From: a virus
Length of the DNA: 38,207 nt
Strand: one strand, 5' to 3'
IMG/VR virus record: IMGVR_UViG_3300044815_000046
Location: 1 to 38,207 of that record
In this document: positions 14,555 through 35,871 of the stretch, one piece after another
How positions within the stretch are numbered: position 1 is the stretch's first letter
How the letters are laid out: each line of letters opens with the position of its first letter
The notes under the pieces: generated by a model
Database searches by the model: none
The model's input: the letters and a program-made list of their open reading frames with translations, nothing else
What the model was told of the DNA's origin: nothing
Made by a program: the position numbers and the translations under genes

Positions 14555-14580
14555 GCGTACCCTCCTCGCAAGTTGCCGTG

Positions 14581-14601
14581 AGTCTCAGGGGCGGGTCAAG
14601 G
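14581..14601 (-). promoter_or_regulatory. Late element: CCTTGACC-N7-GAGACT, upstream of the holin-like gene
   Basis: CCTTGACC directly follows the stop of the upstream gene. Six nt after GAGACT an mRNA start at 14574 would leave a 20-nt leader containing GAGGAGGG, making this the only member of the family with an ordinary leader. Confidence 0.5.
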
Positions 14602-14937
14602 TCAGCACTGCAGGGACGAGAGCGCGTCGATGGTGCGCTTCTGGTTCGCGATGCTCTGCACCAACGTCGCGGCCGGGATGCCGGGGATGCCGTCGGGGTG
14701 CTCGTCCAGGAAGATGCGGGCGTCCTCGATCCGGAGCTCGAGGTCCGAGCGCAGGGTGCAGAGCGCGCTGTTGGCGCTGAGCGCGGTCGCGCGCAGGTCC
14801 GAGCGCTGGCCGGACGAGACGATGTAGCCCGCCACGATCGCGGCCGTGAGGAACAGGTAGACCACCACCGTCGCCCACGTCAGGCGGCGGAGCGCCTTGC
14901 GGAGTTGTTCGCCGATGTCCTCCGGTTCCTCAGTCAT
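14602..14937 (-). CDS. Membrane-anchored protein, 111 aa (lysis cassette)
   Basis: One N-terminal transmembrane helix (ATVVVYLFLTAAIVAGYIVS) and an extracytoplasmic domain with two cysteines (C60 and the last residue) that could form a disulfide. The start overlaps the preceding coiled-coil gene. Its position suggests a spanin-like or holin-modulating role; no family recognised. Confidence 0.6.
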   Translation of the reverse strand: MTEEPEDIGEQLRKALRRLTWATVVVYLFLTAAIVAGYIVSSGQRSDLRATALSANSALCTLRSDLELRIEDARIFLDEHPDGIPGIPAATLVQSIANQKRTIDALSSLQC

Positions 14938-15302
14938 GGCTCTTTCCCTTCGAGTTCTGTTCGCTGGGCGTCGATGGTGACCTGCATCGCCGTGATGGTC
15001 TCGCGCAGTTCATCGATGGTCCGTTGCATCTGTTCCAGCTTGTTCGTCAACCGCATGTTCTCTTTGACGAGATCGTGGTTGTCACCCTCCAGGTGAGCGA
15101 CCCGCGTTTCCAACTCCAGCGTGCGGTCGTTCGACTTCTGCAACCGGCTCGCGTAGTCCTCACGGATCGAGCGCGCTTCGTTCCATAGGTCGGTCGCGTC
15201 CGAGGTCTGGATCTTGCCGCTCATCCGGCGCGAGGCCACGACGTAGGCACCGACCGGGGCCGCGAGGGCTGCGACGAACGCGACGACGACCGCCCAGTTC
15301 AT
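14934..15302 (-). CDS. Membrane-anchored coiled-coil protein, spanin-like, 122 aa
   Basis: N-terminal transmembrane helix (WAVVVAFVAALAAPVGAYVV), then a long heptad coiled coil (about 35-118; LQKSNDRTLELETRVAHLEG). This is the layout of inner-membrane spanins, but actinobacterial hosts need not have the same outer membrane, so the role is open. ATG directly follows the upstream stop, with GAAGG 7 nt before. Confidence 0.6.
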   Translation of the reverse strand: MNWAVVVAFVAALAAPVGAYVVASRRMSGKIQTSDATDLWNEARSIREDYASRLQKSNDRTLELETRVAHLEGDNHDLVKENMRLTNKLEQMQRTIDELRETITAMQVTIDAQRTELEGKEP

Positions 15303-15623
15303 TCAGTCGCCTTCCCTGCGGTTGCGTCTGCGGTGGTCGGCACCGATGAACACCGCCGAGACGAACAGCACGCCCAAGGCGATCGAGTAGGTGATGACGC
15401 GCCTGGTCCACGGCAGGGCCGGAACCCGGAACACGGCTTCGGCGATCATCAGGATGATGACACTCATCGCGGCGAAGTTGGCCGCGTACGCCAAGGGCCA
15501 GGCGTCGCGGTCTCTCACCGCGGTCCGAAGGTGCACCGCGAGCGCGAGGTAGGTGGCGAGGCCCGCAGCGAAGCACGAGAGCCCCACCACGACGTTGCGA
15601 AGTGTGACGAGCGAGCCGATCAC
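15303..15623 (-). CDS. Three-helix membrane protein, 106 aa (lysis cassette)
   Basis: Three predicted transmembrane helices (VVVGLSCFAAGLATYLALAV, FAAMSVIILMIAEAVF, TYSIALGVLFVSAVFI) with a basic C-terminus (RRRNRREGD). It resembles class I holins. Coupled to both neighbours. Candidate holin or antiholin. Confidence 0.6.
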   Translation of the reverse strand: MIGSLVTLRNVVVGLSCFAAGLATYLALAVHLRTAVRDRDAWPLAYAANFAAMSVIILMIAEAVFRVPALPWTRRVITYSIALGVLFVSAVFIGADHRRRNRREGD

Positions 15624-15811
15624 CTCTCATCCTCTTTCCGATGCTGCCGACCCGTGATGACCGGACCGAACAGGTAGCCCGCCACCAGCATCATGGAACC
15701 GTTCACGCTGATCGCGTACTTGTCGGGCACGAAGTCGAACACCAGCGACGCTGCCCAGGCAACGACGATGATGCATCCGACCACGAGGCGGAATCGTTCA
15801 AGGCCGTTCAA
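15620..15811 (-). CDS. Two-helix membrane protein, 63 aa
   Basis: TTG at 15811 is preferred because GAGGGGG lies 4 nt upstream; GTG at 15826 is an alternative giving 68 aa. Two hydrophobic helices (LVVGCIIVVAWAASLVF, GSMMLVAGYLFGPVI) and a charged tail (GRQHRKEDER) fit a class II holin-like protein. Confidence 0.6.
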   Translation of the reverse strand: MNGLERFRLVVGCIIVVAWAASLVFDFVPDKYAISVNGSMMLVAGYLFGPVITGRQHRKEDER

Positions 15812-15917
15812 ACCGCCCCCTCGCACTCCACCAAAGCGCGACGCCGAGCACCAGCGACGTGAACCCCGCGGTGATGTGGAGAGCCGTATCCATGAACATG
15901 GATGTGACCGGGTTCAA
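15798..15917 (-). CDS. Single-pass membrane microprotein, 39 aa
   Basis: TTG at 15917 has AAGGGA 7 nt upstream, just after the endolysin stop; internal ATGs at 15899 and 15893 are alternatives. One helix (ITAGFTSLVLGVALWWSA) and a basic tail. It fills the space between endolysin and the holin-like genes, which it overlaps. Confidence 0.5.
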   Translation of the reverse strand: MNPVTSMFMDTALHITAGFTSLVLGVALWWSARGRFERP

Positions 15918-15930
15918 GAGCCTTTCCCTT

Positions 15931-16617
15931 CTAGACCTTCGATGCGTTCACGGCGAAGCGAGCGGCGTTCCAGCCGAACTTGCGGTCCTCGTTCCCCCAC
16001 CCATCGGGTGCGGGTCCGGGGTCCACGCCGTGCTTCTCTTTCAGCGCCGCTTGGTAGTCCTTCCAGCCTTGCTTGAACTTCTCGTACATCTCGTCATCCC
16101 CGTTCTTCTCAACGGCGCCGAGCTCGAGGCGAGCCTTGAACGTCATCTGCTTGGCGTCGGCTGGCGTGCCGGCCCAGTCGAAATGTTGCCAGTCGTTGAT
16201 CGGAGGGCCGAGCCACCGGAACCCGTACTTGCGGAACAGCACCGGCACCCACTGCGGCATCTTGTAGGTGGACGCCCCGTACACGTTGTCCAGCGAGTTG
16301 AAGTCGATCGCGAGCCCGTAGCTATGGTTGCTGGGGATCGGGTTGCCGGCCGCGTCCTCGGCGCATGTGCCATCTGAGCGATGCGAGCAGCGGCATACCG
16401 ACCCCCAACACTGCCCATTCTTCGGCGGGTAGCCCTTGCGGATGCACTCGGCCAGCAGCAACTCGAGGAGTTCGCAGATGTCCTTGTGAACCTTGCCGAA
16501 ACTCACGCCGTTGGCCGCGACGAGCGGCACCCACGGATCCTCGTGGCAGTTGGGGTAGCCACTCGGCCAACCCCTCTGATCCGGCCGCGTATTTGGGTAC
16601 GCGTAGTTGAAGGCCAT
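15931..16617 (-). CDS. Endolysin, M15 (VanY/L-Ala-D-Glu type) peptidase, 228 aa
   Basis: The catalytic domain (about 15-150) has SNHSYGLAIDF with zinc ligands H98 and D105, and NDWQHFDW with D142 and H145, the M15 peptidase signature. It would cut peptide stems of peptidoglycan. Six cysteines in CWGSVCRCSHRSDGTC are unusual and may bind metal or form disulfides. The C-terminal region (about 170-228; EDRKFGWNAARFAVNASKV) may bind cell wall or be a spacer. ATG 16617 has no Shine-Dalgarno and lies exactly 20 nt after a CCTTGACC element, suggesting a leaderless mRNA. Confidence 0.88.
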   Translation of the reverse strand: MAFNYAYPNTRPDQRGWPSGYPNCHEDPWVPLVAANGVSFGKVHKDICELLELLLAECIRKGYPPKNGQCWGSVCRCSHRSDGTCAEDAAGNPIPSNHSYGLAIDFNSLDNVYGASTYKMPQWVPVLFRKYGFRWLGPPINDWQHFDWAGTPADAKQMTFKARLELGAVEKNGDDEMYEKFKQGWKDYQAALKEKHGVDPGPAPDGWGNEDRKFGWNAARFAVNASKV

Positions 16618-16623
16618 GGGGCA

Positions 16624-16644
16624 AGGTTCGCCCAGCGGTCAAGG
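16624..16644 (-). promoter_or_regulatory. Late element: CCTTGACC-N7-GAACCT, upstream of endolysin
   Basis: The -10-like GAACCT ends 6 nt before the endolysin ATG, which has no Shine-Dalgarno. A transcript beginning at the ATG would be leaderless. The AACCTTG string is shared, at the same place, with the portal element. Confidence 0.55.
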
Positions 16645-16661
16645 CGTGTTAGGTTGCGCCG

Positions 16662-16760
16662 ATGTCGAACGACAACGACCTGACGCGCTTCGAGATGCTG
16701 ATAGGGCTCGTGGCCCTGCTCGGTCTCGGCGCGATCATCTGGAAGGTGTTCGTCGGCTAG
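16662..16760 (+). CDS. Plus-strand membrane microprotein, 32 aa
   Basis: Lone plus-strand gene within the late region. SNDNDLTRFEMLIGLVALLG leads into a transmembrane helix (MLIGLVALLGLGAIIWKVFV). TAGGTT (16650-16655) ends 6 nt before the ATG, with TTCGCC 17 nt upstream, so a leaderless transcript is plausible. Its TAG shares CTAG with the stop of the opposing tail gene. May encode a membrane effector or be a chance ORF with antisense potential. Confidence 0.45.
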   Translation: MSNDNDLTRFEMLIGLVALLGLGAIIWKVFVG

Positions 16761-18256
16761 CCACGGTGGTGCTTGCGCCGCTTCCTGGCATGGGTCCCGG
16801 CCACGAGCGAGGCGATGTTCACCGGCTGCTCCACCCCGAGCGTCACCGACGTAGGCCCCTGAGCTACCTCCATCACCCGGAGGGTTTGTGCCTCGCCCGG
16901 TCCCCAGTCTGCGATCTTCACCGTGTCGCCGTACCGGATAGCCCTGGGGTTATCTCGACCGTCCGTTGACTTCGCGGCCACGACCTCGATGGATCCCGCG
17001 TACCGCTGGGTCGAGAACCTACGGACCAGCTTGTCAGCCACCGCTGAGGGGAGCGCATTGGACTTCTGCCTGTCCTCCATCTCGAACTCGTACGTGTTGG
17101 TGAACCCAGGGATCGGATCGATCAGCGACAGGTCGACGACCGTGCGGAGCTTCGACCGCTTGACGCCGGCAGAGGTCTCGAAGAACACCCGCGCCTGGTC
17201 GAATAGCTCGAGCGGCTTGAGGTCTGCATCCGCGCCCTCAGCCTGCGAGACCGTCCATGCCGTCGTGCCCCAGGGGGCGTATTCGATGGTGTTGTTGCCG
17301 ATGCGCACGAAGTTGTCCTCCAACTCCGCGACGTACAGGAGCGCATCGAGCCACGAGCCCTGATCCCAGTCGAACGGGAGCACGTCGTAAGTCGTGGGCA
17401 CGACGCCTGCGGTGCTCCATGACATCTGCCCGGCGATGTAGGTCACCACGTCCGATGCGTTGTAGCTATCGGCCGTCGTGATGGACGAGTTCGCTCTGAC
17501 CTTGGTGAGCGTCCACCGCATCGCTGAGGCGTTCGGGGCGAACGTCCCATCGTTGCAGTGAAGCCCGAGGGTGAGCAGGTCGATGGATGCGCCCCCGATC
17601 GTGATGCTCTGCTGTGAGCCGTTGTTGCCGGTCGAGAGCAGCACCGTCGTCTCATTCGTCTCCGCGCTCGCGGGTCCGTTGGCGCGCTGCACCCGCACGT
17701 CGAGCTTCGGGAACTCGTCGGCCGCGTTGTAGGTCTGCGTCCACCGCAAACGTCCCCCGGCGAACTCCGCCCCCTCGGCGTACAGGATGAACACCGCGGC
17801 GTCGCCGGTCGCCATGGCCTGATCCTTGCCGAGCGAGAACCGCAGCGAGCCCGTGGTGGAGTCGAGCCCGACCTTGCGGGAGTGGTCATAGACCGGGATG
17901 TCGGAGCCATTCAGATGAGGATCCGAATCGGCCTGCACCCATTGGCCCATGTCGGCGGTCTGGATCAGAAGCCGTTGGGTTTTCTTGGCGGCCGCTTCCT
18001 TGTAGCCGGTGGCATTGAAGAACGCCATTCCGTCTTTGAGTTGCGGCGGCGCCGCGAACCGACCGGCCCACCGCACCTCCGCCCCCTCGTAGACGACGAG
18101 CGCAGCGCCCTGGGTGGGAGACCCGACCCTGCGGTACTCCTCCTCGCTCATCGCCCCCGAACACTGGTCGTAGCCGCCCTCGTTGTCGTTCGAGGCCCAG
18201 CCCTCAACCTTGGCTTCGTTGTCAGCCAGCGCGAACGCGACAGGCGCAAGGCTCAT
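16757..18256 (-). CDS. Minor tail protein (tip/hub region), 499 aa
   Basis: Second large gene after the tape measure, in the usual place of a tail-associated or baseplate hub protein. Sequence is beta-rich with NEAKVEGWASNDNEGGYDQC, FAGGRLRWTQTYNAADEFPK, and later a hub-like YAGSIEVVAAKSTDGRDNPR. The C-terminus is very basic (HARKRRKHHRG). No enzyme motif seen. Start overlaps the upstream tail gene. Confidence 0.75.
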   Translation of the reverse strand: MSLAPVAFALADNEAKVEGWASNDNEGGYDQCSGAMSEEEYRRVGSPTQGAALVVYEGAEVRWAGRFAAPPQLKDGMAFFNATGYKEAAAKKTQRLLIQTADMGQWVQADSDPHLNGSDIPVYDHSRKVGLDSTTGSLRFSLGKDQAMATGDAAVFILYAEGAEFAGGRLRWTQTYNAADEFPKLDVRVQRANGPASAETNETTVLLSTGNNGSQQSITIGGASIDLLTLGLHCNDGTFAPNASAMRWTLTKVRANSSITTADSYNASDVVTYIAGQMSWSTAGVVPTTYDVLPFDWDQGSWLDALLYVAELEDNFVRIGNNTIEYAPWGTTAWTVSQAEGADADLKPLELFDQARVFFETSAGVKRSKLRTVVDLSLIDPIPGFTNTYEFEMEDRQKSNALPSAVADKLVRRFSTQRYAGSIEVVAAKSTDGRDNPRAIRYGDTVKIADWGPGEAQTLRVMEVAQGPTSVTLGVEQPVNIASLVAGTHARKRRKHHRG

Positions 18257-20136
18257 GTGTAGTACCGCGGCTTGTGCTTCGCTTTGAACGTCAGCACCTC
18301 AGTGCGAGCGTTGCGGAACTCTGTCACGTCCCACTGCACGCCGGGGTACTCGGTCCACAGGCTGTAGACGACGGAGAGCCCTGGTGGGGCGACGAGAGGC
18401 GTGGGTCCACGCGGGTCGATGGTTGGGGCCGTCAGCACGCCCGCGGCACTCGTGCGGATCACGGTGCCGTCCTCCGCGTTGCTCACCGCCAGATCGGTCG
18501 CCGTGATGCCCTGCCCAACACCATCGACCATGCAGGCTCCGGGCGCCGGCACGAATGTGATGCAGTCCCATATCAGGTTCCCGGCTCCCGCGGTTCGGTT
18601 GGCGAGAACACGGAAGGCCTGTGAGGTCCACGAAGCGTCGGCCGGGAACGTCACCACGCCCATCAGCAGGTCGTAATACTGGGCGGCGGTGGCGGCGGTC
18701 GCCGTCGCGGTCAAGGTGGGTCCAACCGGGGTGGTTACTTCCAGCACCGCCGTGCCCGTGTACGTGGCATCGGCAGGCGCCACACGCATCAGCACGAGCC
18801 ACGTCTTGCCCCGAAGTGCCGACAGGATCGTGGCATCGGTGAGCGTGTACGTCGCACGCTGGGCGCTCGCTGTGACGAAGGTCGTTTTTTTGCCCGTGTT
18901 CCCCGTGCCAGGTGAAGAGAGCGCAGCGGTATCCACGGCCGTGTCGGTGCTGTTCGTCCAGTCCTCGAACTGCAGGCACGCGCCGTTGGTGTTCAGGTAC
19001 TCGATGAGCTTGCCCGTCCCCGGCGTGCCGGCGGGGTCGGAGAGGAACCCGACCATGGCACGCTGCGGCCCCGAGGTGGTGTTGTTCATCGTCAGCGTGA
19101 ACGGCGCCGGGGCGTTGCCCGCATTCACGATCGGGAACACACGCCCCATGTTCGTCTTGGGGTCGATGCTGCCGGTGGTCTCTGATCCCACACGGAAGGT
19201 CGAGGCGGCAGCGGCCAGCTCCATCTGCGCGTTCTTCCACTGCACCGTCGCGGCGGCGGTCTGCACCTTGAGCGTGCATCGAGCCCAAGCCGTCGTTGCC
19301 GGCGCGGTGAGCGTCAAGGAGTCGCGGGTGAAGATCGAAGATGAGATGCCCGTCGATGCAGAGCCCGAGATGAACGCCAGTCCCGCCGTGTACCACTCGA
19401 CCTGGACCTGAGCCACGCCGGATCCCGAGATGCGCTTGGCAAAGGCAGAGAACGTCCACTGCTGGCCGACAGAGGCGGCAACGTCCTGCAGGATCATGTT
19501 GCCCGCACCCGCCGCGACCGCTTGGAACGCCTCCGTGGCGGCGTCGATCGTGTACGTGCCCGCGACGCCGGTCCACCCGGTAGGTGCCGTGGGTATGTTC
19601 GGGGCACGAAGCAGCGTGGCGTTCAACAGCTTGTTCACCGTCGGGTCGAGTTCGGCGCCACGGAGGTAGGGCTGGCACGTCAGCGTGAGCGTCAAGCCGT
19701 CCGGTGTGTCCACCAGGGACGTGGCGAGGTAGCTGGACAGTTCCCGCCCGTCCATCGCGTACGGACTCGGTGAGGGCTCCACGTCGATGAACTTCACCAG
19801 CGACGAGGTGTTGGCCTGCCACTTGATCACGCAGCCCGCGTTGAGGTACTGGCTCAACCTGCCCAAGGCGCCAGCGAGCGAGTCGTAGGCGGCGGCTCGC
19901 ATCCGAAACCGGAACGTGACGGTGCGGAAGCCCGCCCGCTGGAACACGGTCGAGCCACCGTCACGCTGAGGTGGGGAGAACCGGGAGAACTCCATGGCGG
20001 GCTCGCCCAGGTTGGTGTTCTCCAGCAGCACCGTCGACGAGTAGCCGAGGTCGCCGACGTTCGCGGCCGTGGGGTCGTTGAAGTCGAACAGCACGGTGCT
20101 CGTGGTCTCATCGTATATCTGACACACCGATGCCAT
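18253..20136 (-). CDS. Distal tail / minor tail protein with carbohydrate-binding-like domain, 627 aa
   Basis: The N-terminal 165 residues (FDFNDPTAANVGDLGYSS, GFRTVTFRFRMRAAAYDS, DGLTLTLTCQPYLRG) resemble siphovirus distal tail proteins. Residues about 175-320 (ILQDVAASVGQQWTFSAFAK ... VQVEWY) look like a CBM-type jelly roll, likely for host glycans. A second beta domain and a C-terminal tail-like module (PGLSVVYSLWTEYPGVQWDV) follow. Position after the tape measure fits a tail-tip protein. ATG overlaps the preceding stop. Confidence 0.78.
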   Translation of the reverse strand: MASVCQIYDETTSTVLFDFNDPTAANVGDLGYSSTVLLENTNLGEPAMEFSRFSPPQRDGGSTVFQRAGFRTVTFRFRMRAAAYDSLAGALGRLSQYLNAGCVIKWQANTSSLVKFIDVEPSPSPYAMDGRELSSYLATSLVDTPDGLTLTLTCQPYLRGAELDPTVNKLLNATLLRAPNIPTAPTGWTGVAGTYTIDAATEAFQAVAAGAGNMILQDVAASVGQQWTFSAFAKRISGSGVAQVQVEWYTAGLAFISGSASTGISSSIFTRDSLTLTAPATTAWARCTLKVQTAAATVQWKNAQMELAAAASTFRVGSETTGSIDPKTNMGRVFPIVNAGNAPAPFTLTMNNTTSGPQRAMVGFLSDPAGTPGTGKLIEYLNTNGACLQFEDWTNSTDTAVDTAALSSPGTGNTGKKTTFVTASAQRATYTLTDATILSALRGKTWLVLMRVAPADATYTGTAVLEVTTPVGPTLTATATAATAAQYYDLLMGVVTFPADASWTSQAFRVLANRTAGAGNLIWDCITFVPAPGACMVDGVGQGITATDLAVSNAEDGTVIRTSAAGVLTAPTIDPRGPTPLVAPPGLSVVYSLWTEYPGVQWDVTEFRNARTEVLTFKAKHKPRYYT

Positions 20137-20300
20137 CAGCGTTGACCGCCTTCACGCATCCGCTTGCGGAACCAGCGATCCATCTGCCTCTCGAGCGGCT
20201 CGCGTTCCCGGTCAGTGGGGAACGTGTTCGAGTCCGGCACCTTGATGTCGAGCTCGACCACGAGCCGGCGCTTGGGAAGGTGGATGACTCTCTCTGCCAT
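20136..20300 (-). CDS. Small charged protein, 54 aa
   Basis: Start at 20300 with AGGAG 5 nt upstream. Sequence AERVIHLPKRRLVVELDIKV and a basic C-terminus (ERQMDRWFRKRMREGGQR). Located among tail genes; may be a minor structural or assembly factor. Confidence 0.55.
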   Translation of the reverse strand: MAERVIHLPKRRLVVELDIKVPDSNTFPTDREREPLERQMDRWFRKRMREGGQR

Positions 20301-20307
20301 GTCGCTC

Positions 20308-20751
20308 CTAGAGTGGGTACTGCGGGAAGAAGTCCGCGTGAACATGCGAGTAGTGGTCGCCGAGCGGTGAGGGGAAGTACGGGTCCGCGAGCAGGTGCGC
20401 GATCGAGAACAGCGCCCGGTTAGCGTCCGACCAGTACGCGACCTGGCGGTGCAGGTCGCCCGTGCACATCACGTCCACCGCGTTGCCCCAGTTGTGCTGG
20501 CTCAAGGTGGACGTGCCCGCGATGTTGCGGTGCGCCACGATGCCGAGCGGCAGGTTGCCGAACGTCGCACGGACGGCGCCGGCGTACAGCGCAGCGGCAG
20601 GGGTGGCGCCCGCGATCGAGGGTATCTCGATCTCCACTTCGATGACGAAGTTGGTGGTGTTCAGTTGCTCCATCGCCGCGTTCAACGTCTCGGGATCCAC
20701 CCAGTTCGGCGAGCAGGTATCCCGGACGCGCGTTCCCCCGAGTTGCGGCAT
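20308..20751 (-). CDS. M15-peptidase-like tail protein, 147 aa
   Basis: Starts with a one-base TGATG overlap at the tape-measure stop. The C-terminal part has STLSQHNWGNAVDVM and GDHYSHVHADFFPQY, matching the SxHxxGxAxD and HxH zinc motifs of M15 carboxypeptidase-like proteins (H86, D93, H138). The N-terminal 70 residues are a beta-rich lead. Likely a virion tail-tip peptidase or binding protein acting on peptidoglycan during DNA entry. It is distinct in sequence from the endolysin. Confidence 0.7.
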   Translation of the reverse strand: MPQLGGTRVRDTCSPNWVDPETLNAAMEQLNTTNFVIEVEIEIPSIAGATPAAALYAGAVRATFGNLPLGIVAHRNIAGTSTLSQHNWGNAVDVMCTGDLHRQVAYWSDANRALFSIAHLLADPYFPSPLGDHYSHVHADFFPQYPL

Positions 20752-23103: not shown

Positions 23104-23118
23104 GGGCACTGCCTCCCT

Positions 23119-23161
23119 GCGCCGTTGGCGGCCCGTTGGGCGGGCCGAGAACCGTTGGCGC
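23119..23161 (-). terminator. Nested hairpin between tail tube and chaperone genes
   Basis: Outer stem GCGCC/GGCGC (23119-23123 with 23157-23161) and inner stem GGCCCG/CGGGCC (23130-23135 with 23141-23146). No U-tract follows, so it may attenuate rather than stop transcription, giving more tail tube than chaperone mRNA. Confidence 0.5.
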
Positions 23162-23164
23162 GGT

Positions 23165-24181: not shown

Positions 24182-24184
24182 GGG

Positions 24185-24529
24185 CTAACTCGCTTTCTTC
24201 AAAGGTCGCGGTGGAGGAACGCCGCGGCCTTTGAGGTCACGGTCGCGGTTGTTGTCCGCTGCGGTGCCTAGCCACAGATGTGAGGGGTTCACACACGGCG
24301 GGTTGTCGCACGAGTGACATACGAACAGCCCGGCTGGGACGGCACCGTGCGCCAGTGCGTAGGCAACGCGGTGGGCAGGGTCGCATTCGCTATGCCCCAT
24401 CGAGAACTGTCCGTACCCGTACTTATCGCGGGAGGCGTCCCACTCCCAGCAGTCGTCGGGGCCAGCGCCCACGTACGCCACCTTGGACCAGAAGCGCTCG
24501 CCGACAGGGGCCGCTGCGTATCCGCTCAC
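24185..24529 (-). CDS. HNH homing-type endonuclease in the tail module, 114 aa
   Basis: ERFWSKV near the start and AHRVAYALAHGAVPAGLFVC followed by HSCDNPPCVNPSHLWLG is the well-known HNH_3-type signature with its zinc cysteines; TAADNNRDRDLKGRG ends the domain. It lies between a short pre-tail gene and the tail tube, in frame with both through overlaps or near-overlaps. This looks like a mobile insertion that has been tidied into the operon. Confidence 0.92.
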   Translation of the reverse strand: MSGYAAAPVGERFWSKVAYVGAGPDDCWEWDASRDKYGYGQFSMGHSECDPAHRVAYALAHGAVPAGLFVCHSCDNPPCVNPSHLWLGTAADNNRDRDLKGRGVPPPRPLKKAS

Positions 24530-24717
24530 GAGCCCTCCTTCACGGGCTTGATGGTGCCGGCCTCAAGCGCGAGCCGGATGGTCTGGTCGTAGGTCTGTCC
24601 CTCGTCGTCGGGGATCGTCGTGGGTGTCTTGCCCTTGAACACCAGGGGCTTGTGTGCGGCGCCCGAACGGTCTACGCCGCCAAGTTCCACGCTTCCGACT
24701 GTCGAGACGTACTCCAC
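24526..24717 (-). CDS. Small pre-tail protein, 63 aa
   Basis: GTG 24717 has no Shine-Dalgarno and is exactly 20 nt after CCTTGACC. Sequence begins EYVSTVGSVELGG and includes VDRSGAAHKPLVFKGKTPTT, an easily folded small domain. It lies between tail terminator and tail tube. Function unknown; possibly a tail assembly or connector factor. Confidence 0.6.
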   Translation of the reverse strand: MEYVSTVGSVELGGVDRSGAAHKPLVFKGKTPTTIPDDEGQTYDQTIRLALEAGTIKPVKEGS

Positions 24718-24723
24718 GGATTC

Positions 24724-24744
24724 ATCGTGGGTGAGGGGTCAAGG
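24724..24744 (-). promoter_or_regulatory. Late element: CCTTGACC-N7-CACGAT, upstream of the pre-tail gene
   Basis: The element begins 2 nt after the tail terminator stop. CACGAT ends 6 nt before the GTG at 24717, which has no Shine-Dalgarno. It could drive the tail genes, including the tail tube. Confidence 0.55.
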
Positions 24745-26714: not shown

Positions 26715-26977
26715 GGGCTACCGACCGACGTGATGGTGGGGTCGTAGGTGCCCGCGATGGCGATGATGGGCGAGTAGGAACCGAGCAAGGTCACTGTTGC
26801 ATCGTGCGTCCCAAGTAAAGGTAGCGACGGGCTGTAGGCGCCCGCCACGGCCACGTTATCGAGCGATCCAGCGATAGCGATCGAGGGCGAGTAAAGCCCC
26901 AGGATCTCGGTGATATCGACCGGGTTGGTGTCCAGGTCTCCGTCGAGCAAGAGCGACGACAGCAGGAGCTCGCTCAT
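26711..26977 (-). CDS. Decapeptide-repeat protein, 88 aa
   Basis: After a hydrophobic, acidic N-terminal 27 residues, the protein is six tandem units of about 10 residues of form xY(S/D)PxIxIxG (LYSPSIAIAG, AYSPSLPLLG, SYSPIIAIAG, TYDPTITSVG). The same unit ends the 508-aa cassette protein. Such short repeats usually form an elongated beta structure. ATG overlaps the upstream stop. Confidence 0.65.
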   Translation of the reverse strand: MSELLLSSLLLDGDLDTNPVDITEILGLYSPSIAIAGSLDNVAVAGAYSPSLPLLGTHDATVTLLGSYSPIIAIAGTYDPTITSVGSP

Positions 26978-28824
26978 GCGTGGGTCACCAGCTTCCAGCC
27001 GGTGTTCCCCGCGCCCGTTTTCTTGATGTAGCCCTCGCCGTTCGTGGTGTCGGCGCAGTAGGACCCCATCGGAGCAGTGACGACGGACTCAGGCGTGCCG
27101 GCGTTGGTGCAGAACCGCACACCGTCGAGCGAGAGCGCCTGGCCCTTGAGCAGCCCCACGTCCCCGACACGGACGTTCGACGAGGACGACACGACCGATT
27201 CCATGAACGCGAGCACTTCGGAGTCCGACCAAGTGGCCGTTGGGATGTGGTAGAAGCACGGCGCGAAATACTCGACGGAGGCGTTCGTGTCGCAGTAGAT
27301 GTTCAGGTTCGTATTTGCTCCGCCCGTGGGGATCGCCGCGACCTTCACGGCGTCCACGACGAAGATCTCGTCCTTGTCACCGAGCCATGGGTGCTTGAGT
27401 TCGGCGAACGTCGCGGTCGTCCCGTTGCCGCGGTCGAACAGGTTGCCCGCACCCGTCATGGCGATCTGCATCACCTTGTTCGGGAAGCCCGTGGACGTGC
27501 GCTTGATCCAAGCCCCGTAGACGTACCAGTCACCGACCGCGAGCGAGTGGCCCGAATGGGCGATGTCCACGATGGTCTTGTTGCCCGATGCTCCCGAGAG
27601 CTCCGCAGCGTTCGTCGTACCATCCGGCGCGGTGCGGCCCGTGGTGACGGTGCAGGAACCAGACAGCCCGCTCCACGTCGAAGTGTCGTGAGGCGCGCGT
27701 TGGATGAACCTCACGACCGCTGGAGCAAACGCCCTGCGAACCGCATCGGTGCGCCCGAACACCCGGCCCTTCCAGAACCCCACCTGGCGATGTCCCTGGG
27801 GGCTCGTGGTCACGACTGCCGAGCTGGAGTCGTAGCGGCTGAGGACGGTGGCCGGGCCGGAGACATCCGTAGCCCCCGCGACCACAACGATGGAAGGGTC
27901 GTTGCCGGTTGCCACCATGACCGCGGGTTGGCGGGTGCCGGCGTCGGCCTGCTCGATCCCCCGGACGTGGGCGTGACCGGGCGCGTTGGTGACCTTCGAT
28001 GCGAACCAGTAGATCGGGCCAGACGTGAGGTCGCCCGTCGATGGACCCTCCTGCACGCAGGACTCCACGATGGTGTTCACCGAGCCGGAGGAATACTGCT
28101 TGACTCCCCCGCCGCCGTTGAAGTTCGTGTCCCTGATCCAGATGAGCCCCTCACCGATGCCGTTGCCCCGGATCAGGACGGCAGGACGCTTGTCGTTGCT
28201 CCATACGACCTGCTCGTTGCAGGAGAAGTCGCAGTCGCGGATGTAGAGCCAGTACGCCGACGTGATGTCGATGACCGGGCCATAGGCGGAGTTCTGCTCG
28301 CAGCGCAACACGATGTTGTCGAACGTGAAGAAGGCGTTGTTGGTCGAGCCCGCGCCGGTGGAGTCCAGCCCCAGGATGACGGGATGGGCCAGGGCCGTCT
28401 GCGAGAAGTTCACGAACTCTAGCGGCAGGTTGTTCCCCGAGGCCCATAGCAGCGGCCGGTTGACATCGGTCGGCGAACCGGCGTTGAGCGTCGCGGTTGG
28501 CTTGTGGCTCTGCCCGGTGGGATCCAGGACAGGGATGCCTTCGAGCTTCATCGCGATCGGGCGTCGCCACCCGGCAGCGAGGAGCGCCGGGGTCAATGCT
28601 CCGCTGTTCCACTGTGAGTCCCCCGGCCCCGCCAGCTGGATACCGCGCGTCGGGTTGGCGGAGTCCCAGCAGGAACCGGACTCGAACAGGATGGTGGCAC
28701 CGCCGAGCCCGCCCGCCAGCGCCGCGTCGTAGGCGCCCAGCGCGTCCTTCTTGGGATAGTTCCAGGTGCGGCCGTCGTTGCTGTTGTCGCCCGTGGGCGA
28801 AACGCAGAAGGCGCCGGTGGGCAT
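26974..28824 (-). CDS. Right-handed beta-helix spike-like protein, 616 aa
   Basis: Start at ATG 28824, one-base TAATG overlap. The opening CVSPTGDNSNDGRTWNYPKK and the stretch about 90-300 with repeated inward-facing V/I and N ladders (AFFTFDNIVLRCEQNSAYGP, LIWIRDTNFNGGGG) match pectate-lyase-like beta-helices. The region around 400-560 is a carbohydrate-binding-like jelly roll (GSCTVTTGRTAPDGTTNAAE). The C-terminus is small and Cys-containing. Such proteins usually bind or cleave surface glycans. Its location in the head-gene region suggests a capsid-surface fibre. Confidence 0.75.
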   Translation of the reverse strand: MPTGAFCVSPTGDNSNDGRTWNYPKKDALGAYDAALAGGLGGATILFESGSCWDSANPTRGIQLAGPGDSQWNSGALTPALLAAGWRRPIAMKLEGIPVLDPTGQSHKPTATLNAGSPTDVNRPLLWASGNNLPLEFVNFSQTALAHPVILGLDSTGAGSTNNAFFTFDNIVLRCEQNSAYGPVIDITSAYWLYIRDCDFSCNEQVVWSNDKRPAVLIRGNGIGEGLIWIRDTNFNGGGGVKQYSSGSVNTIVESCVQEGPSTGDLTSGPIYWFASKVTNAPGHAHVRGIEQADAGTRQPAVMVATGNDPSIVVVAGATDVSGPATVLSRYDSSSAVVTTSPQGHRQVGFWKGRVFGRTDAVRRAFAPAVVRFIQRAPHDTSTWSGLSGSCTVTTGRTAPDGTTNAAELSGASGNKTIVDIAHSGHSLAVGDWYVYGAWIKRTSTGFPNKVMQIAMTGAGNLFDRGNGTTATFAELKHPWLGDKDEIFVVDAVKVAAIPTGGANTNLNIYCDTNASVEYFAPCFYHIPTATWSDSEVLAFMESVVSSSSNVRVGDVGLLKGQALSLDGVRFCTNAGTPESVVTAPMGSYCADTTNGEGYIKKTGAGNTGWKLVTHA

Positions 28825-29189
28825 TAGGCCACCCGGCCCTGCAGCACCGCCGTGCCCCACGCCAGCACTTGGTTCTGACCCGCGTCGATACGGGCGAGCG
28901 TGTAGTGGAACGTCCCCGGAGAAAGCCCTGGGGTGTCGGTCGCGGCCACCGCGACGGTGCAGATACCGCTCAACGGGGTCGTGAGGGTGGCGGTCTTGGT
29001 GAGCACCGACGCGCCGGTCTCAGTGGGGGCCATACGGAACTGGATCGTCCAGCCGGTGATGTCCTTGGCGACCGGGGGCGAGACAGCCGTGAGGGGGTCA
29101 AGGTCAGTGATGGGCCACTGGAACGACTGATCCTCACCGATGAACCAACCATCGGCCTCGGTGATGGGGCTGTTGCCGGGGATCTTCAC
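28824..29189 (-). CDS. Small beta-sandwich domain protein, paralogue B, 121 aa
   Basis: GTG 29189 is preferred because it lies exactly 20 nt after a CCTTGACC element; GTG 29192 is 3 nt upstream. Shares several blocks with 26373-26714 (ADGWFIGED, ITGWTIQF, LTKTATLTTPLSGICTVAVA). It sits at the other side of the beta-helix gene, so the pair flanks the spike. Likely an attachment or collar domain. Confidence 0.7.
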   Translation of the reverse strand: MKIPGNSPITEADGWFIGEDQSFQWPITDLDPLTAVSPPVAKDITGWTIQFRMAPTETGASVLTKTATLTTPLSGICTVAVAATDTPGLSPGTFHYTLARIDAGQNQVLAWGTAVLQGRVA

Positions 29190-29195
29190 CACGCA

Positions 29196-29216
29196 AGCGT
29201 CGGCTAGGGGTCAAGG
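29196..29216 (-). promoter_or_regulatory. Late element: CCTTGACC-N7-GACGCT, upstream of the spike cassette
   Basis: CCTTGACC overlaps the stop of the upstream repeat protein, and GACGCT ends 6 nt before the GTG at 29189, which has no Shine-Dalgarno. It would drive the paralogue B, spike and repeat-protein genes. Confidence 0.5.
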
Positions 29217-30737: not shown

Positions 30738-30746
30738 GGCCGTCCT

Positions 30747-31214
30747 CTATGAGACCGTCGCGGTCCAGAGGCCGGATGCAGTCACGTCGATCGTGAACGT
30801 GTTGCCCGTGGTGATCGTTTGAGCGCCCACGTCGATGTAGCCGATGAGCGGCTTGACGGGCGGACCCGTGCCGATGGAATCATCGTGAACCGCGGCGTAC
30901 TGGAACACGAGCGAACCACCCGATGCCGTCCACGACACGTCATCGCACGCGAACGTGGTGACGTTCCCGGTGCCGTTGTACGTGAGGGTCTTGGTGCTGA
31001 GCGTGATGCCGTTCGCGGTGTAGCCGTTCGCGGTGCTCAGTTCGTTCGTAGCGTCGGCGAACGCTTCGTTGGTGTCGATGTTCGGCGTCCAGGTGACGGT
31101 ATGCAGCGTGATCTTGAGCGTGTCGGACAGGATGTCCATCTGCCCAGCATCGCCGGACGCCTCGCCGCCCTGGACGTTCGCGCCGTACTTGCCGAACAGC
31201 TGCATGGTAGCCAC
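30747..31214 (-). CDS. Virion beta-sandwich protein of the LSDTLKITLHT type, 155 aa
   Basis: The motif run LSDTLKITLHTVTWTPNIDT, TANGITLSTKTLTYNGTGNV and KPLIGYIDVGAQTITTGNTF is shared by many small phage structural proteins of unresolved role. GTG start (TAGTG overlap) has a GAGGTGG site 7 nt before. Candidate capsid decoration. Confidence 0.75.
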   Translation of the reverse strand: MATMQLFGKYGANVQGGEASGDAGQMDILSDTLKITLHTVTWTPNIDTNEAFADATNELSTANGYTANGITLSTKTLTYNGTGNVTTFACDDVSWTASGGSLVFQYAAVHDDSIGTGPPVKPLIGYIDVGAQTITTGNTFTIDVTASGLWTATVS

Positions 31215-31534
31215 TAGGACGCCACCTCGATCCAGTCAGCGGCGACCTGCTCATCGGTGAGCGGTTCAGCGGCATAGCCGTAGCGGTCGACCTCATGGCC
31301 CTTGGGGCACGTCGCGCTCACGTGGACCGCGATGCCCTTGCGTTCCTCCATGGCCTCGGTGCGATCCTGGCCGCACTCCACCGAAGCGGAGCGGCCGTCG
31401 GGCAGTTCGACGGTCTCGATGGTGTTGCAGACCCCCGGCGAGATCCGCCGGCGCAGCGTCGGGCCCTTGGCGGCATCGAAGTCGGCCTGGGCTTGGCCGT
31501 GACGCGAGAGCGCTTCCTTGGACTTCGCCATCAC
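31214..31534 (-). CDS. Hypothetical head-region protein, 106 aa
   Basis: GTG 31534 overlaps the upstream stop; ATG 31531 is an alternative. Basic N-terminus (AKSKEALSRHGQAQADFDAA), two cysteines in VCNTIETV and VECGQD, and CPKGHEVDRYGYA. Small soluble protein among capsid genes; may be a minor head component or assembly helper. Confidence 0.6.
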   Translation of the reverse strand: MMAKSKEALSRHGQAQADFDAAKGPTLRRRISPGVCNTIETVELPDGRSASVECGQDRTEAMEERKGIAVHVSATCPKGHEVDRYGYAAEPLTDEQVAADWIEVAS

Positions 31535-31890
31535 AGATACGCGTCCGCGGTCAGAGTCACATTCGTGTTCGCGGATCCCACGATGCGGACGAACTGCCAG
31601 GGCTGGTTCGCCTGGAGCAGGTAGGTCGTGGTCACAGCCGTGGTGATCGTGATGGCCGTGATGACGAACGTGGAGGGTGTCGCGACGAGTGCGTACGGGA
31701 TGTTGAAGAAGGCCACGCCGTCAGCGGAGCCCTGGATGTTCACCGTGACGGTGGGGGTCGCGCCGATCGTGGACGTGATGACGACAGCGCCCGGCGACTG
31801 CGTATCGCTCGAGGAGCCTCGCGACGCGACCGCAGACGCGGTGGCAAGCACCTCAGCGGTGCAGAGCCGGGACTGGTCGAATGCGGCCAC
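31531..31890 (-). CDS. Beta-rich head-region protein, 119 aa
   Basis: GTG start overlapping the upstream stop (TAGTG). The sequence is alternating T/V/I strands (VVITSTIGATPTVTVNIQGS, YLLQANQPWQFVRIVGSANT) typical of small capsid or tail decoration beta-sandwiches. No family recognised with certainty. Confidence 0.65.
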   Translation of the reverse strand: MAAFDQSRLCTAEVLATASAVASRGSSSDTQSPGAVVITSTIGATPTVTVNIQGSADGVAFFNIPYALVATPSTFVITAITITTAVTTTYLLQANQPWQFVRIVGSANTNVTLTADAYL

Positions 31891-32168
31891 TACTTTCCCT
31901 TCGTGCTCTGCGTGGTGAGCCCGGCTGCCTTGGGCTCTTCCTTCTCGGGGGCCGTGCGGGGCGCGCGTTTCTCACCGGGGGCCGCTGTTGCGGCTTCCAC
32001 GTCGGGGGCTCCGCCGCGGCGTGATGCCTCCAGGGGCTTGAACAGGTGCGGCGCGAGCTTGAGGATCGGATCTCCCCGCTTCACGCGCGTGGTGTCTTTC
32101 GTGAACATCTCGCCCTCTTGCGTCGTGAAGCTCTCGCTGGCGACGAACCACTCTGTCTGTGGAGCCAT
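31890..32168 (-). CDS. Small post-capsid protein, 92 aa
   Basis: Start at 32168 with a perfect GGAGGA site. N-terminal APQTEWFVASESFTTQEGEM and a VKRGDPILKLAPHLFKPL core, then a charged disordered tail (GEKRAPRTAPEKEEPKAAG). Found directly after the capsid gene in many actinophages; likely a minor head protein. Confidence 0.68.
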   Translation of the reverse strand: MAPQTEWFVASESFTTQEGEMFTKDTTRVKRGDPILKLAPHLFKPLEASRRGGAPDVEAATAAPGEKRAPRTAPEKEEPKAAGLTTQSTKGK

Positions 32169-32190
32169 GTGTCCTCCGTTTCGGGGGAGG

Positions 32191-32215
32191 GGGCGGGGGG
32201 ACCGGCCCCCCGCCC
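32191..32215 (-). terminator. Strong hairpin directly after the capsid gene
   Basis: Perfect 10-bp GC stem (GGGCGGGGGG with CCCCCCGCCC) and a 5-nt loop, 12 nt after the capsid stop. No U-tract follows. It probably attenuates transcription or stabilises capsid mRNA, giving high capsid expression. Confidence 0.7.
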
Positions 32216-32226
32216 ACATCCTTGGC

Positions 32227-34440
32227 TTACAGGCCGACCAGCGTGATCCCGCCTGCCGGGTCGAACACCCGTGCGGTGTTGCGCCACATCGCGTAGACGC
32301 CGCGCTGCCCGGAGGGGTAGTTGGCCGTGAGGCCGAACAGATGCGGGATCAGTTCGATGTCGAGCCCGACCCGCTCCACGATCACGTAGAAGCTCGGGTC
32401 CATGAGGACCGCTTCCTTCACGGTCGTGGCGAGCGTTGCGACCATGGCCGATGACTCGTTGGCCGGGTAGCCGATGAGGTTGAAGCCAGTGTTCCCGGTC
32501 TCGTTCGCCGGGATGCCCGTGCGCAGGTCCGGCACCCACAGGTTCGCGCCGCCGGCGGTGTCGAGCTGGCGAACCTTGTTGTACCAGAAGCGGTTCGCGA
32601 ACCACTGCGCGTTGTCACGGAACCGCGGAGGCAGGGCCTCTTCGGTCTTGTAGATGTCGTTGACTGCCAGCACCGTCGTGGTGCCCGTGGTCGCGGTGTT
32701 CGTCATGCCGACCACGATGCCCTGCGGGAGCACGCCGGTGCCGAGGCCGGTGGCGAACTGGGTGGCCTCCAGCACGTCCTTCGAGTCCTGGATCAGTCCG
32801 GCCATCTCCGACTGCAACGCGCCCCAGTCTTGGTCCAGTTCGATCGAGAACGGGATGAAGGTCTGCGCGCGCTTCGTGATGAAGGCGGGCTGGGCCAGCG
32901 TCGGCGAACGGTCCACCGCTTCGGTGGCTTCTGCCTCATACGTCGCGACCACGGCGCCCGACGACACTCCACGCCACTCATTCGTCCCCGAGATCGAGAC
33001 CACGCGACACGCCCGGCGGAACGGGTTCACCGCGCCACTCGAGGTCTTCACGATGGTCGGGTCGAGATCGAACGTGATGGCGAACCCACCGGTTGCACCG
33101 GCGCCCTCTGCCATCACGGTCCGCTCTTCGGAGGTGAGGGTGTCGAGGGAACCTGCCTTGATGGCTTTGCCCAACGCCCTGCGGTAGGTCGGGGAGCCGG
33201 TCGTGAGGATCCTGCGGCTGATCTCGGCGTCCTGAGACTCCGAGGTCTTGAGCAGCTTCTCGACCTGGCCCTTGGCGTCTTCCTGGTTGGCGCGCTGGTG
33301 GGCGAACGTCGCACCCTCGACGGCCTTCATGGCGCGGTCGCGGAACATCTGCGAGGCGTTGTCGGGATCGCGTGCGTCCCGGTAGACCGCGGCCTTGTTG
33401 TAGATGTCCTGGACGGGCTTCATCACCTGGAAGTCGCGGTCCGGTGGCTCCACCGTCTCGCGCTTCTCGCCGAACGAGGCCACGCGCTGTTCGCGCTTCA
33501 CCTGAGCCTCGAGGTCACGCGTCACCTTCTCGAGGGCTTCCTCGGCCTCGTCGTAGCGCGTCTGCACGTCGGGCGGCAACTGGCCGCTGTGCTCTTCTGA
33601 GATGGCGGTGATCTCGGCTTGCAACTCCGTGATCCTTGCGCCCTTGTCTTCCTTGGTTCGAAGCTGTTCGGTGTCCACGACGGGGGCCTCCTTCGGCTCC
33701 TCGAGTTGCTCTGGATCGCGGCGCTCCGTCGAGGTGGCCTGTGCGGCCGGCGTCGTGGAGGGTGCGGACTTCTTCTGTTCGAGCGCACCTTCGATGAGGT
33801 GCGCCAGTTCCTTGGGCTTGGTGCGGGCGGCTTCGAGCAACTGCGCTTCGAAGCCCGAGGTGTCTCGATACCAGTCCGTGAGCGACCGAACCCCGACTTC
33901 GGTGTCAACTTCGGCCGGGAAGGTGACGGGGCCGGCCTCCATCACGCGGGCTTCCTTGATCGTGCGCTGCGGGATGCCGTCGGGGTTCCAGTCGGAACGC
34001 TCGGGGCGCTCCTCGATGTCCTCGCGCAGGACGTTGAAGCGGTAGGACGCGCCGTACACCCCTGCGTCGATGCCGGGAAGGATCTCGCGGTTGTAGGCGG
34101 TATCCAACATGGTGCCGCCCATGAACGGCCCCTCGTCGTCTTCGCGCACATCTTCGATCGCGGCGACGGGCTTGTCCCCCACCACGGGGTCGCGGCCGTG
34201 CTGGAACAGCATCCGCATCCGCGCCAGGTTCTCCTGGAACGTCTTCGCCATCGCGCCCTTCTCGACGCGCTCCATGAACCGGCCCTCGTAGGGGGAGTTG
34301 ATCTCGTTCCAAGTCCCGTACCGGGCGAAGCGGACGCCGATGTAGGGCATCTGCCCGTCTTCGGCCTTCCGAACCTCCACTCGCGTCGGAACCGCCCGCA
34401 CAAGGTCTTGACGCGGCAGGCTCATGGGGTCGTTGTCCAT
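32227..34440 (-). CDS. Fused prohead protease and HK97-type major capsid protein, 737 aa
   Basis: Residues 1-195 are an HK97-family protease: H81 (LFQHGRDP) and S132 (GASYRFNV), with VMEAGPVTFPAEVDT after it. Residues about 205-340 form a charged coiled coil acting as the delta scaffold. The rest is an HK97-fold capsid (GAGATGGFAITFDLDPTIVK, TFIPFSIELDQDWGALQSEM, GIVVGMTN) ending in VFDPAGGITLVGL. Fusion of protease and capsid in one gene is known in several phages and implies self-processing. ATG follows the portal stop by 3 nt. Confidence 0.92.
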   Translation of the reverse strand: MDNDPMSLPRQDLVRAVPTRVEVRKAEDGQMPYIGVRFARYGTWNEINSPYEGRFMERVEKGAMAKTFQENLARMRMLFQHGRDPVVGDKPVAAIEDVREDDEGPFMGGTMLDTAYNREILPGIDAGVYGASYRFNVLREDIEERPERSDWNPDGIPQRTIKEARVMEAGPVTFPAEVDTEVGVRSLTDWYRDTSGFEAQLLEAARTKPKELAHLIEGALEQKKSAPSTTPAAQATSTERRDPEQLEEPKEAPVVDTEQLRTKEDKGARITELQAEITAISEEHSGQLPPDVQTRYDEAEEALEKVTRDLEAQVKREQRVASFGEKRETVEPPDRDFQVMKPVQDIYNKAAVYRDARDPDNASQMFRDRAMKAVEGATFAHQRANQEDAKGQVEKLLKTSESQDAEISRRILTTGSPTYRRALGKAIKAGSLDTLTSEERTVMAEGAGATGGFAITFDLDPTIVKTSSGAVNPFRRACRVVSISGTNEWRGVSSGAVVATYEAEATEAVDRSPTLAQPAFITKRAQTFIPFSIELDQDWGALQSEMAGLIQDSKDVLEATQFATGLGTGVLPQGIVVGMTNTATTGTTTVLAVNDIYKTEEALPPRFRDNAQWFANRFWYNKVRQLDTAGGANLWVPDLRTGIPANETGNTGFNLIGYPANESSAMVATLATTVKEAVLMDPSFYVIVERVGLDIELIPHLFGLTANYPSGQRGVYAMWRNTARVFDPAGGITLVGL

Positions 34441-34443
34441 GGC

Positions 34444-35844
34444 CTAGACCTTCGCCTTGGCGTCAAGGTTGGTTGCCTTGCCGTTCGAAGTCGGGTCGAT
34501 TCCGGGCAGCGCCGGCTGTTCAGGCTTCGCCACGGTGCCGGGAGGCTGCAGCTGCACGCTCAGGAGCCCGGTGTGCTTGAGCTTGGTGGGATCGTCGCTC
34601 ACGACGGCCGCGACGACGGAGTCCGAGTCGTAGCCCGCGTTCACGTAGGTGGTGATGGTGCGGGCCTGAACCTCCTGGATCTCGGCCGCGTCCTTCTCAT
34701 CCTCGCGAAGGAACGCCACATCACGCAGGTCGGCCGCGAGCTCGGCGCGAGCCGGGACCGTGACGATGTTCGACAGCGCGCCCGCGGCTCCCTGCCACAG
34801 CGGCCGCAGCGTCTTGTCGGCCGTCAACCGTCGAGCGGCGGCGAAGTTGCCCTGGTTCAGGCTGGAGCCCTGCAGCCCTTCGCTCAAGCCCACGATGGTG
34901 GGGTGGATCCCTGACGCCGCGGCGATGCGCGTTTCGTCAGCGCCCTGCACGGCCTTGAAGTCCATCTGCTGAAAGTCCGCACCGATGGAGTGGGCGGTGG
35001 CGCCGAGTAGATGGGCGGTCTTGAACGCGTTCCCGGCCCCGTTGTGGTTCTCATCGAACCGCTGGGTCATGGCATCGAAGATCTCGATGGTCATGGCAGG
35101 GTCGTACTCGATCGCGAGGTTCACGGTGGCGCCCTTGTCGAAGAACGTCTGCTTGTGCGTCGTCGCCGCGATGTCGCCCTGGATCTCCCGCACGACCGGC
35201 ATGAGCCAACTCATCCCCCGTTTGGGGCTCATGGGGTCCGGGATCGGTGCCCAGTGGGCCACTTCCTCGGGGAACAGGATCACGGGGTCTTTCCCGGAGT
35301 TCGGGCCACCTTCTTGGTACAGGTAGCCGAGCAGCTGCGCATCGAGATCCCACATCGTCGGGTCTTCCTGCGGCGAGCCGTAGACGATCTGCACCCAGTC
35401 GGGCCGCAGTCGGCCGAGCGGCGTGCCTCTCGTGGCGATGAACGCGTCACCGGCCATGTCGGCGTCGGCGATCATCGTGGTGAGCAGGTCCAACGTGGTG
35501 CTGCCCTGCCACGGTTTGTGCAGCGGGATGAGGTCGGCGTTGCCGAACAGGTCTCCAGGGCGGCCGTCCTTGAAGTTCTGGAACTGGAACCGGGCCTGGC
35601 AGAACAGCATCATGCGGGCCAACATGCAGGCGAACACCACGCCGTTGGATTTGTAGGCCCCCTGCACCAGTCCGGCGAAGTTCGCGCCGATCTTCTCGGA
35701 AGTGCCGGTCGATGAGGGGTAGGTGGTCAGCGGATAGCCGAGCCCCTGGTACTTGAAGTATTCATCGATCGTGAGCGGGTAGGTCTGACGTTCGGACACG
35801 CCAGTGCCCATCGTGTCTTGCCACCACTCGCGAAGCTTCCCCAC
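34444..35844 (-). CDS. Portal protein, 466 aa
   Basis: SPP1/HK97-like portal: VFACMLARMMLFCQARFQFQ near residue 70, ADMAGDAFIATRGTP, EEVAHWAPIPDPMSP, the long helical crown about 220-360 and an acidic helical C-terminal part (LREDEKDAAEIQEVQARTIT). It forms the DNA-passage ring at one capsid vertex. GTG start has no Shine-Dalgarno and lies exactly 20 nt after a CCTTGACC element. It precedes the capsid gene as usual. Confidence 0.9.
   Translation of the reverse strand: MGKLREWWQDTMGTGVSERQTYPLTIDEYFKYQGLGYPLTTYPSSTGTSEKIGANFAGLVQGAYKSNGVVFACMLARMMLFCQARFQFQNFKDGRPGDLFGNADLIPLHKPWQGSTTLDLLTTMIADADMAGDAFIATRGTPLGRLRPDWVQIVYGSPQEDPTMWDLDAQLLGYLYQEGGPNSGKDPVILFPEEVAHWAPIPDPMSPKRGMSWLMPVVREIQGDIAATTHKQTFFDKGATVNLAIEYDPAMTIEIFDAMTQRFDENHNGAGNAFKTAHLLGATAHSIGADFQQMDFKAVQGADETRIAAASGIHPTIVGLSEGLQGSSLNQGNFAAARRLTADKTLRPLWQGAAGALSNIVTVPARAELAADLRDVAFLREDEKDAAEIQEVQARTITTYVNAGYDSDSVVAAVVSDDPTKLKHTGLLSVQLQPPGTVAKPEQPALPGIDPTSNGKATNLDAKAKV
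34448..34468 (-). promoter_or_regulatory. Late element: CCTTGACG-N7-GAAGGT, upstream of the protease-capsid gene
   Basis: Lies inside the last codons of the portal gene. One base differs from CCTTGACC; GAAGGT is followed by 7 nt to the ATG. A transcript from here would carry essentially no leader. Confidence 0.4.
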
Positions 35845-35860
35845 GCCCCAAGGTTGGGGC
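35845..35860. promoter_or_regulatory. Perfect inverted repeat GCCCCAA-GG-TTGGGGC before portal start
   Basis: A 7-bp stem, 2-nt loop palindrome immediately upstream of the GTG, overlapping the -10-like CAACCT of the late element. It could be an operator; if transcribed, it could form a hairpin blocking the start codon. Confidence 0.45.
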
Positions 35861-35871
35861 TCCGGTCAAGG
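35851..35871 (-). promoter_or_regulatory. Late element: CCTTGACC-N7-CAACCT, upstream of portal
   Basis: Begins immediately after the terminase stop. CAACCT ends 6 nt before the portal GTG, which has no Shine-Dalgarno. Same AACCTTG string as the endolysin element. Confidence 0.55.

Follow-up and report, generated by a model that had tools for sequence, protein, structure and literature searches.

A conserved two-part element before the late genes of uncultured actinophages, a probable late promoter giving mostly leaderless mRNAs

Six exact copies of the pattern CCTTGACS-N7-SANNNT, each heading a late transcription unit and all on the minus strand, are present in the genome of an uncultured virus, and an element of the same fixed geometry is conserved before late genes in related viruses. 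The element is most probably a bipartite late promoter, in which a phage-dependent box would take the place of the -35 and from which mostly leaderless mRNAs would be made. As about a dozen other viruses carry this signal ahead of genes of the same kinds, it probably represents a hitherto undescribed type of promoter, dependent on a helper protein made by the phage. The viruses that bear the element can be placed as soil actinophages.

The element in the window

The stretch of DNA analysed, called the window here, is 38,207 bp long (positions 1 to 38,207 of IMG/VR record IMGVR_UViG_3300044815_000046) and comes from an uncultured virus of actinobacteria, most likely a near-complete temperate siphovirus. 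Genes recognised in it include those for a terminase, a portal, a protease/capsid fusion, a tape measure, an endolysin, a holin and an integrase, as well as a replication-initiation protein, an HNH protein and a WhiB, and the minus strand holds all of the late genes (Table 1). The prohead protease and the major capsid protein form a single 737-aa fusion, an arrangement also annotated in Rhodococcus phage Shagrat.

Table 1. Copies of the element (cores) and the genes discussed in the text, in window coordinates.
Feature	Coordinates	Strand	Details
Core before portal	35851..35871	-	CCTTGACC-N7-CAACCT; predicted +1 is the G of GTG 35844
Portal protein gene	34444..35844	-	PHROG portal, E 1.6e-27; start GTG 35844
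Core before capsid/protease fusion gene	34448..34468	-	CCTTGACG-N7-GAAGGT; ATG 7 nt after box
Capsid maturation protease and major capsid fusion	32227..34440	-	Pfam Peptidase_S78 and Phage_capsid; ATG 34440
Core before 29189 GTG gene	29196..29216	-	CCTTGACC-N7-GACGCT
phrog_1084 gene behind third core, function not known	28824..29189	-	GTG 29189
Core before 24717 GTG gene	24724..24744	-	CCTTGACC-N7-CACGAT
63-aa gene behind fourth core	24526..24717	-	GTG 24717
Core before endolysin (M15 peptidase)	16624..16644	-	CCTTGACC-N7-GAACCT
Endolysin, M15 D-Ala-D-Ala carboxypeptidase type	15931..16617	-	ATG 16617
Core before holin gene	14581..14601	-	CCTTGACC-N7-GAGACT, then C/A at -1/+1 and a 20-nt leader with Shine-Dalgarno
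Holin	14201..14554	-	PHROG holin, E 4.8e-17
Small HGTR-GCxCDGCR and XRE-type helix-turn-helix protein, candidate regulator	7162..7479	-	
Probable seventh, weaker core (near-match)	1605..1625	-	CCTTGCCC-N7-GAAGAT-N6-ATG (1596-1625 including the ATG)
WhiB-like protein, candidate activator	1595..2197	-	Pfam Whib 1.6e-10

The octamers, 7-nt gaps and boxes that the initial annotation had listed at six minus-strand positions are present letter for letter, the octamers spanning 35864-35871, 34461-34468, 29209-29216, 24737-24744, 16637-16644 and 14594-14601. The start codons of the portal, the endolysin and the genes at 29189 and 24717 lie exactly 6 nt after the box, as had been described, and a Shine-Dalgarno-like tetramer is indeed absent from all four. 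The 7-nt distance reported for the capsid ATG is likewise correct, with an AAGG that sits inside the element itself, and the holin gene has its 20-nt leader, AACTTGCGAGGAGGGTACGC, carrying a Shine-Dalgarno of its own. The probable seventh core precedes a 56-aa ORF between whiB and the HNH gene; its octamer deviates, and it was retrieved by a looser search, as were four sites in another virus, G028.

With the start codon taken as +1, the box occupies -12 to -7, the usual position of a -10 element, and the octamer occupies -27 to -20. A-11 and T-7 are the two most critical letters of a -10 element. In the case of the holin gene, C and A are kept at -1 and +1 where no start codon stands at +1, which makes the element look like a promoter and unlike a translation signal.

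How far chance could produce such an arrangement was estimated in several ways. The octamer CCTTGACS occurs nine times in the window, always on the minus strand; shuffled sequences lead one to expect 2.9 occurrences. Behind six of the nine, SANNNT follows at a spacing of 7, and at other spacings from 0 to 17 it follows none; the remaining three octamers (29103, 19319 and 18716) lie inside genes and have no full box. The co-occurrence of octamer and AnnnT, for which a Markov-background check had been proposed, holds up well: the joint 21-mer is found six times, against 0.11 expected and a maximum of 1 in 300 order-3 Markov simulations, and with a start codon in place the expectation falls to 0.003. 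Because the 21-mer was defined after the sites had been seen, the weight of the argument rests on independent tests, namely conservation and a blind scan.

Conservation in portal relatives and other viral records

Relatives of the portal were taken from IMG/VR. The exact CCTTGAC motif is mostly absent from the first 80 of them, a result that resembled refutation until alignment of the upstream regions by start codon revealed variant octamers. At the start of the portal gene the element occupies the equivalent position in 11 relatives with proteins 54-67% identical (L007, L008, L010, L011, L012, L087, L107, L108, L109, L110 and L111), and the fixed octamer-to-start spacing, suggested earlier as something to look for in related phages, is kept in each. 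The variants include CCTAGACG-N7-CACCCT-N6-GTG (L007), CCTAGACA (L008), GCGTGACC-N7-CATCGT-N6-GTG (L010 and L011, with GCGTGACC also in L108, L109 and L111), CCTTGAGT (L012), CCGTGACC (L087 and L110) and CCTAGACC-N7-TAGGCT (L107). The octamer letters differ among relatives, and the spacer letters are unlike between lineages.

The portal is one of several genes with a conserved copy. The gene after the portal bears the element in L007, L008, L009, L107 and L087; in L010, L108, L012 and G001 (the contig of L111) the element is present there with the start codon up to 2 nt farther away. The core of the capsid/protease gene is also found in L107, L010, L108, L087, L012 and G001, and other sites precede capsid, protease, tail and lysis genes. 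The L007 ortholog of the 29189 gene (63% identity) has CCTTGACC-N7-CAATCT, and G001 has six sites, one of which is followed by an 11-nt leader. Two relatives with 55% portal identity, L013 and L014, have a Shine-Dalgarno at the portal start instead of the element, so its use must have been gained or lost within this group. A reversed-pattern control gave no match in 16 records.

Over 42 sites the octamer can be summarised as SCKWGACS at -27 to -20. G-23, A-11 and T-7 are found at 42 of 42 sites, C-26 at 41, C-21 at 38 and A-22 at 37, position -12 is C or G in 41 and T in one, and C-1 and a purine at +1 are each found in 36. The frequencies of S-12, A-11, T-7, C-1 and RTG are somewhat inflated because these letters were built into some of the search patterns. 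Alignment of the portal set on the start codon alone yields the same letter preferences, and the spacers between the parts are uninformative. At sites without a start codon at +1 (the holin gene of the window and site 23312 of G001), the core stays as it is, with a leader behind it. The octamer letters at -25/-24, which are TT, TA or GT, agree within genomes beyond shuffling (p 0.001-0.007), as though the sites of each genome tracked a reader of their own.

A DNA pattern derived from the window was also run blind over IMG/VR and gave 68 stretches, a number near a rough chance estimate. Among these, L200 and L201 each have one copy ahead of the portal and another ahead of the prohead protease, with one site of each pair lying outside the scan's own selection. 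The element also precedes a terminase in L237, and in L218 (G028) it precedes both an M15 endolysin-like gene and the gene for a secreted protein, the gene names on these four contigs coming from reading of their sequences and not from a family search; the pattern that yielded L200, L201, L218, L220 and L237 already included C-1 and RTG. The 38.4-kb G028 is laid out like the window, down to the location of a WhiB-like gene, and its looser sites precede the portal, a putative structural gene, a 53-aa gene and HNH.

The majority of the IMG/VR pattern matches are chance-like and were set aside, including a repeated CCTTGACCaagtgccCAACCT...GTGCAAT block. Slightly varying copies of this block, CCTTGACCaagtgccCAACCTt[g/a]ttgcGTGCAAT, occur in some dozen contigs with a GC content of 52-56% (L181, L182, L190, L204, L206, L213, L215, L219, L221, L238, L240, L274 and L275), and it is probably an unrelated repeat that matches by chance. 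Terminase and endolysin queries returned no relatives in IMG/VR. No copy was found in 13 other phage records, mainly actinophage isolates with related portals, and searches for an isolated phage that carries the element found none.

A late-promoter reading and its rivals

The element could work as follows. Host RNA polymerase with a sigma-2-type domain would open the DNA at [C/G]A-N3-T, in the usual place at -12 to -7, while a second, phage-dependent protein would contact the octamer at -27 to -20, exactly 7 bp upstream, replacing the sigma-4/-35 contact. The first transcribed base would be a purine with C in front of it, 6-7 nt downstream of the box. This purine would in most genes be the first base of the ATG or GTG, giving a leaderless mRNA for which a Shine-Dalgarno is unneeded, and a few genes would get a short leader; the RNA start is predicted at, or a few bases from, the first codon. 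At least six such promoters would switch on the genes for structure and lysis, unit by unit. The proposal of late promoters with leaderless mRNAs, made in the initial annotation, gains support from the invariance of A-11 and T-7, from C-1 and the purine at +1, and from a core that stays fixed when the start codon moves. Taken together, the sequence comparisons point to a conserved, phage-specific late promoter, a variant of the kind that combines a phage box with a -10.

The earlier argument that the octamer is not a -35 at ordinary spacing also stands, the spacing being 7. TTGAC is, even so, the core of the actinobacterial -35, and the octamer might be a -35 contact of sigma region 4 moved one helical turn closer, for instance through a phage WhiB bound to sigma-4 or through a phage sigma, with TTGAC at -25 to -21 instead of -35. 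The presence of this core, a spacer exactly 10 bp shorter than 17 and a whiB closing the early regions of the window and G028 would fit such a shift, and there is a precedent in WhiB7, which works by binding SigA (PMC3905903). We nevertheless regard it as unlikely, though the foremost of the rivals, given that the TAGAC or GTGAC of relatives break the best-conserved -35 letters, G001 has no Pfam WhiB match and nothing sigma-like was recognised among the genes of the window.

Less likely again, the element could be a host-type promoter, read by an alternative sigma factor or an activator of the host and exploited by many phages. Such a promoter would suit the lack of a shared phage regulator in the three positive genomes; however, in 198 genomes of Acidimicrobiia, one candidate host class, the element and its reversed control are about equally frequent (4 matches against 3), and this lack of enrichment counts against a host promoter type. 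Six genomes with related prophage-like loci hold one match in total, and the octamer letters vary by phage genome.

The placement of most copies directly at start codons and gene junctions could also suggest a translation-initiation or junction sequence, either a recombination boundary or a repeat like the start-associated sequences (SAS/ESAS) of cluster K, which carry AGGAG and lie right before phage start codons (PMC3203893). Both are repeated, mostly one-directional and immediately upstream of start codons, but the Shine-Dalgarno that lies inside the SAS is missing from the element at most sites, and its inner geometry is kept when the start codon is 20 nt away or absent at +1. SAS matches in the window are no better than chance, as judged with a 13-bp consensus whose AGGAG core and position are those of PMC3203893. 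This explanation is very improbable. The least probable of all, raised in the initial annotation, is that of L5-type (cluster A) stoperators, GGTGGMTGTCAAG, overlapping ordinary promoters, as the complement GGTCAAGG has GTCAAG in common with them, but each of the six sites departs from GGTGGMTGTCAAG at more than 3 positions, and repressor sites would predict neither A-11, T-7 and C-1, nor the fixed distance to the start, nor placement before orthologous late genes.

Returning to the late-promoter reading, its parts can be compared with known systems. In mycobacterial leaderless promoters the -10 lies about 6 nt upstream of the start. Mapped starts of this kind favour C at -1 and have RTG at +1, as here (PMC4633059), but in the element C or G replaces the first T of the -10 in 41 of 42 sites, and an octamer with an invariant G-23 is added. 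TANNNT at -12 to -7 is thus not the rule (T-12 in one of 42), and TANNNT-N6-RTG is absent from the minus strand of the window, which also contains no ordinary sigma-70/A promoter with -35 and -10 hexamers 16-18 bp apart.

T4 middle promoters offer a second comparison. There a MotA box, (a/t)(a/t)(a/t)TGCTTtA, is centred at -30 and lies 12 +/- 1 bp from the -10, through sigma appropriation by AsiA/MotA (PMC2988021). A phage-specific box stands in for the -35, the host -10 position is kept and a class of genes is switched on, all as proposed here (PMC2988021). The T4 -10, however, is stringent, whereas SCKWGACS lies 7 bp away at -27 to -20, T-12 is lacking and the mRNAs are predicted to be leaderless; a MotA box at the T4 spacing is not found. 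The searched early proteins gave no match to the AsiA/MotA families in Pfam and PHROGs, a comparison that could miss remote homologues. The late promoter P3 of GIL01 likewise places late genes of a temperate phage under a phage activator near the -35, although its gp6 site is centred at -43.5 (PMC6182141) and the octamer lies at -27 to -20.

Whether the mode of recognition is itself undescribed, with a phage-encoded factor on a TGAC/AGAC box one helical turn nearer the -10 than an ordinary -35, RNA polymerase delivered straight to the start codon, a late programme that is leaderless throughout and a spread through uncultured actinophages, is in our view an even question. The literature search, which covered open-access sources, found no older report of such promoters, although one may exist, for instance for phiC31. 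If the reading is correct, the -35 is replaced at a spacing without precedent in the open-access literature examined, and a late programme without Shine-Dalgarno sites is explained. For an actinophage late promoter and its start site, the element supplies an exact 21-bp description that can be tested and that is found in about a dozen phage lineages; it could aid in locating late operons and correcting start codons in uncultured phages. A 2022 review noted that few late promoters of mycobacteriophages are characterised and that their study is merited (PMC9262239).

Candidate readers of the octamer

Our best guess is that the octamer is read by a phage-encoded activator. A phage factor is favoured because the element is not common in the candidate host genomes, is absent from the 13 other phage records and has octamer variants that agree within genomes. 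Still, a search for an early regulator common to the window, G001 and G028 found the integrase alone to be shared, and the reader could therefore be a host protein or a fast-evolving one.

The WhiB protein, put forward in the initial annotation, is a fair candidate. WhiB-like genes are present in two of the three early regions, those of the window and G028 (the latter recognised from its sequence), but G001, with its six sites, gives no Pfam WhiB match. As a universal partner WhiB was rejected on this ground, and a tblastn search of phage isolates with the window WhiB gave no match. The gene comes last in the early region, ahead of HNH and the terminase, both in the window and in G028 (1308-1889, minus strand), two phages that have otherwise diverged. 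The window copy has a basic C-terminal tail with CxxC...CxxxC.

The HGTR-HTH protein has a counterpart in G001 (8016-8357) that is about 41-44% identical, and in both phages it follows the replication gene. Its predicted model weakly resembles XRE/Cro-type HTH domains, and no PDB match fell below E 0.001. It too was rejected as a universal partner, being found in the window and G001 and not seen in the comparison with G028. Another early gene of the window, at 11638-11913, encodes a Zn-ribbon protein, a further possible factor.

Near the place that WhiB holds in the others, G001 has a gene for a SANT/Myb-like HTH and zinc-ribbon protein (13981-14432), itself preceded by a GCGTGACG-N7-GAAGAT core. 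A tRNA-like sequence ending in GGTTCGAATCCCACCTCAGCA lies between the early region and HNH of G001, at about 14600-14720.
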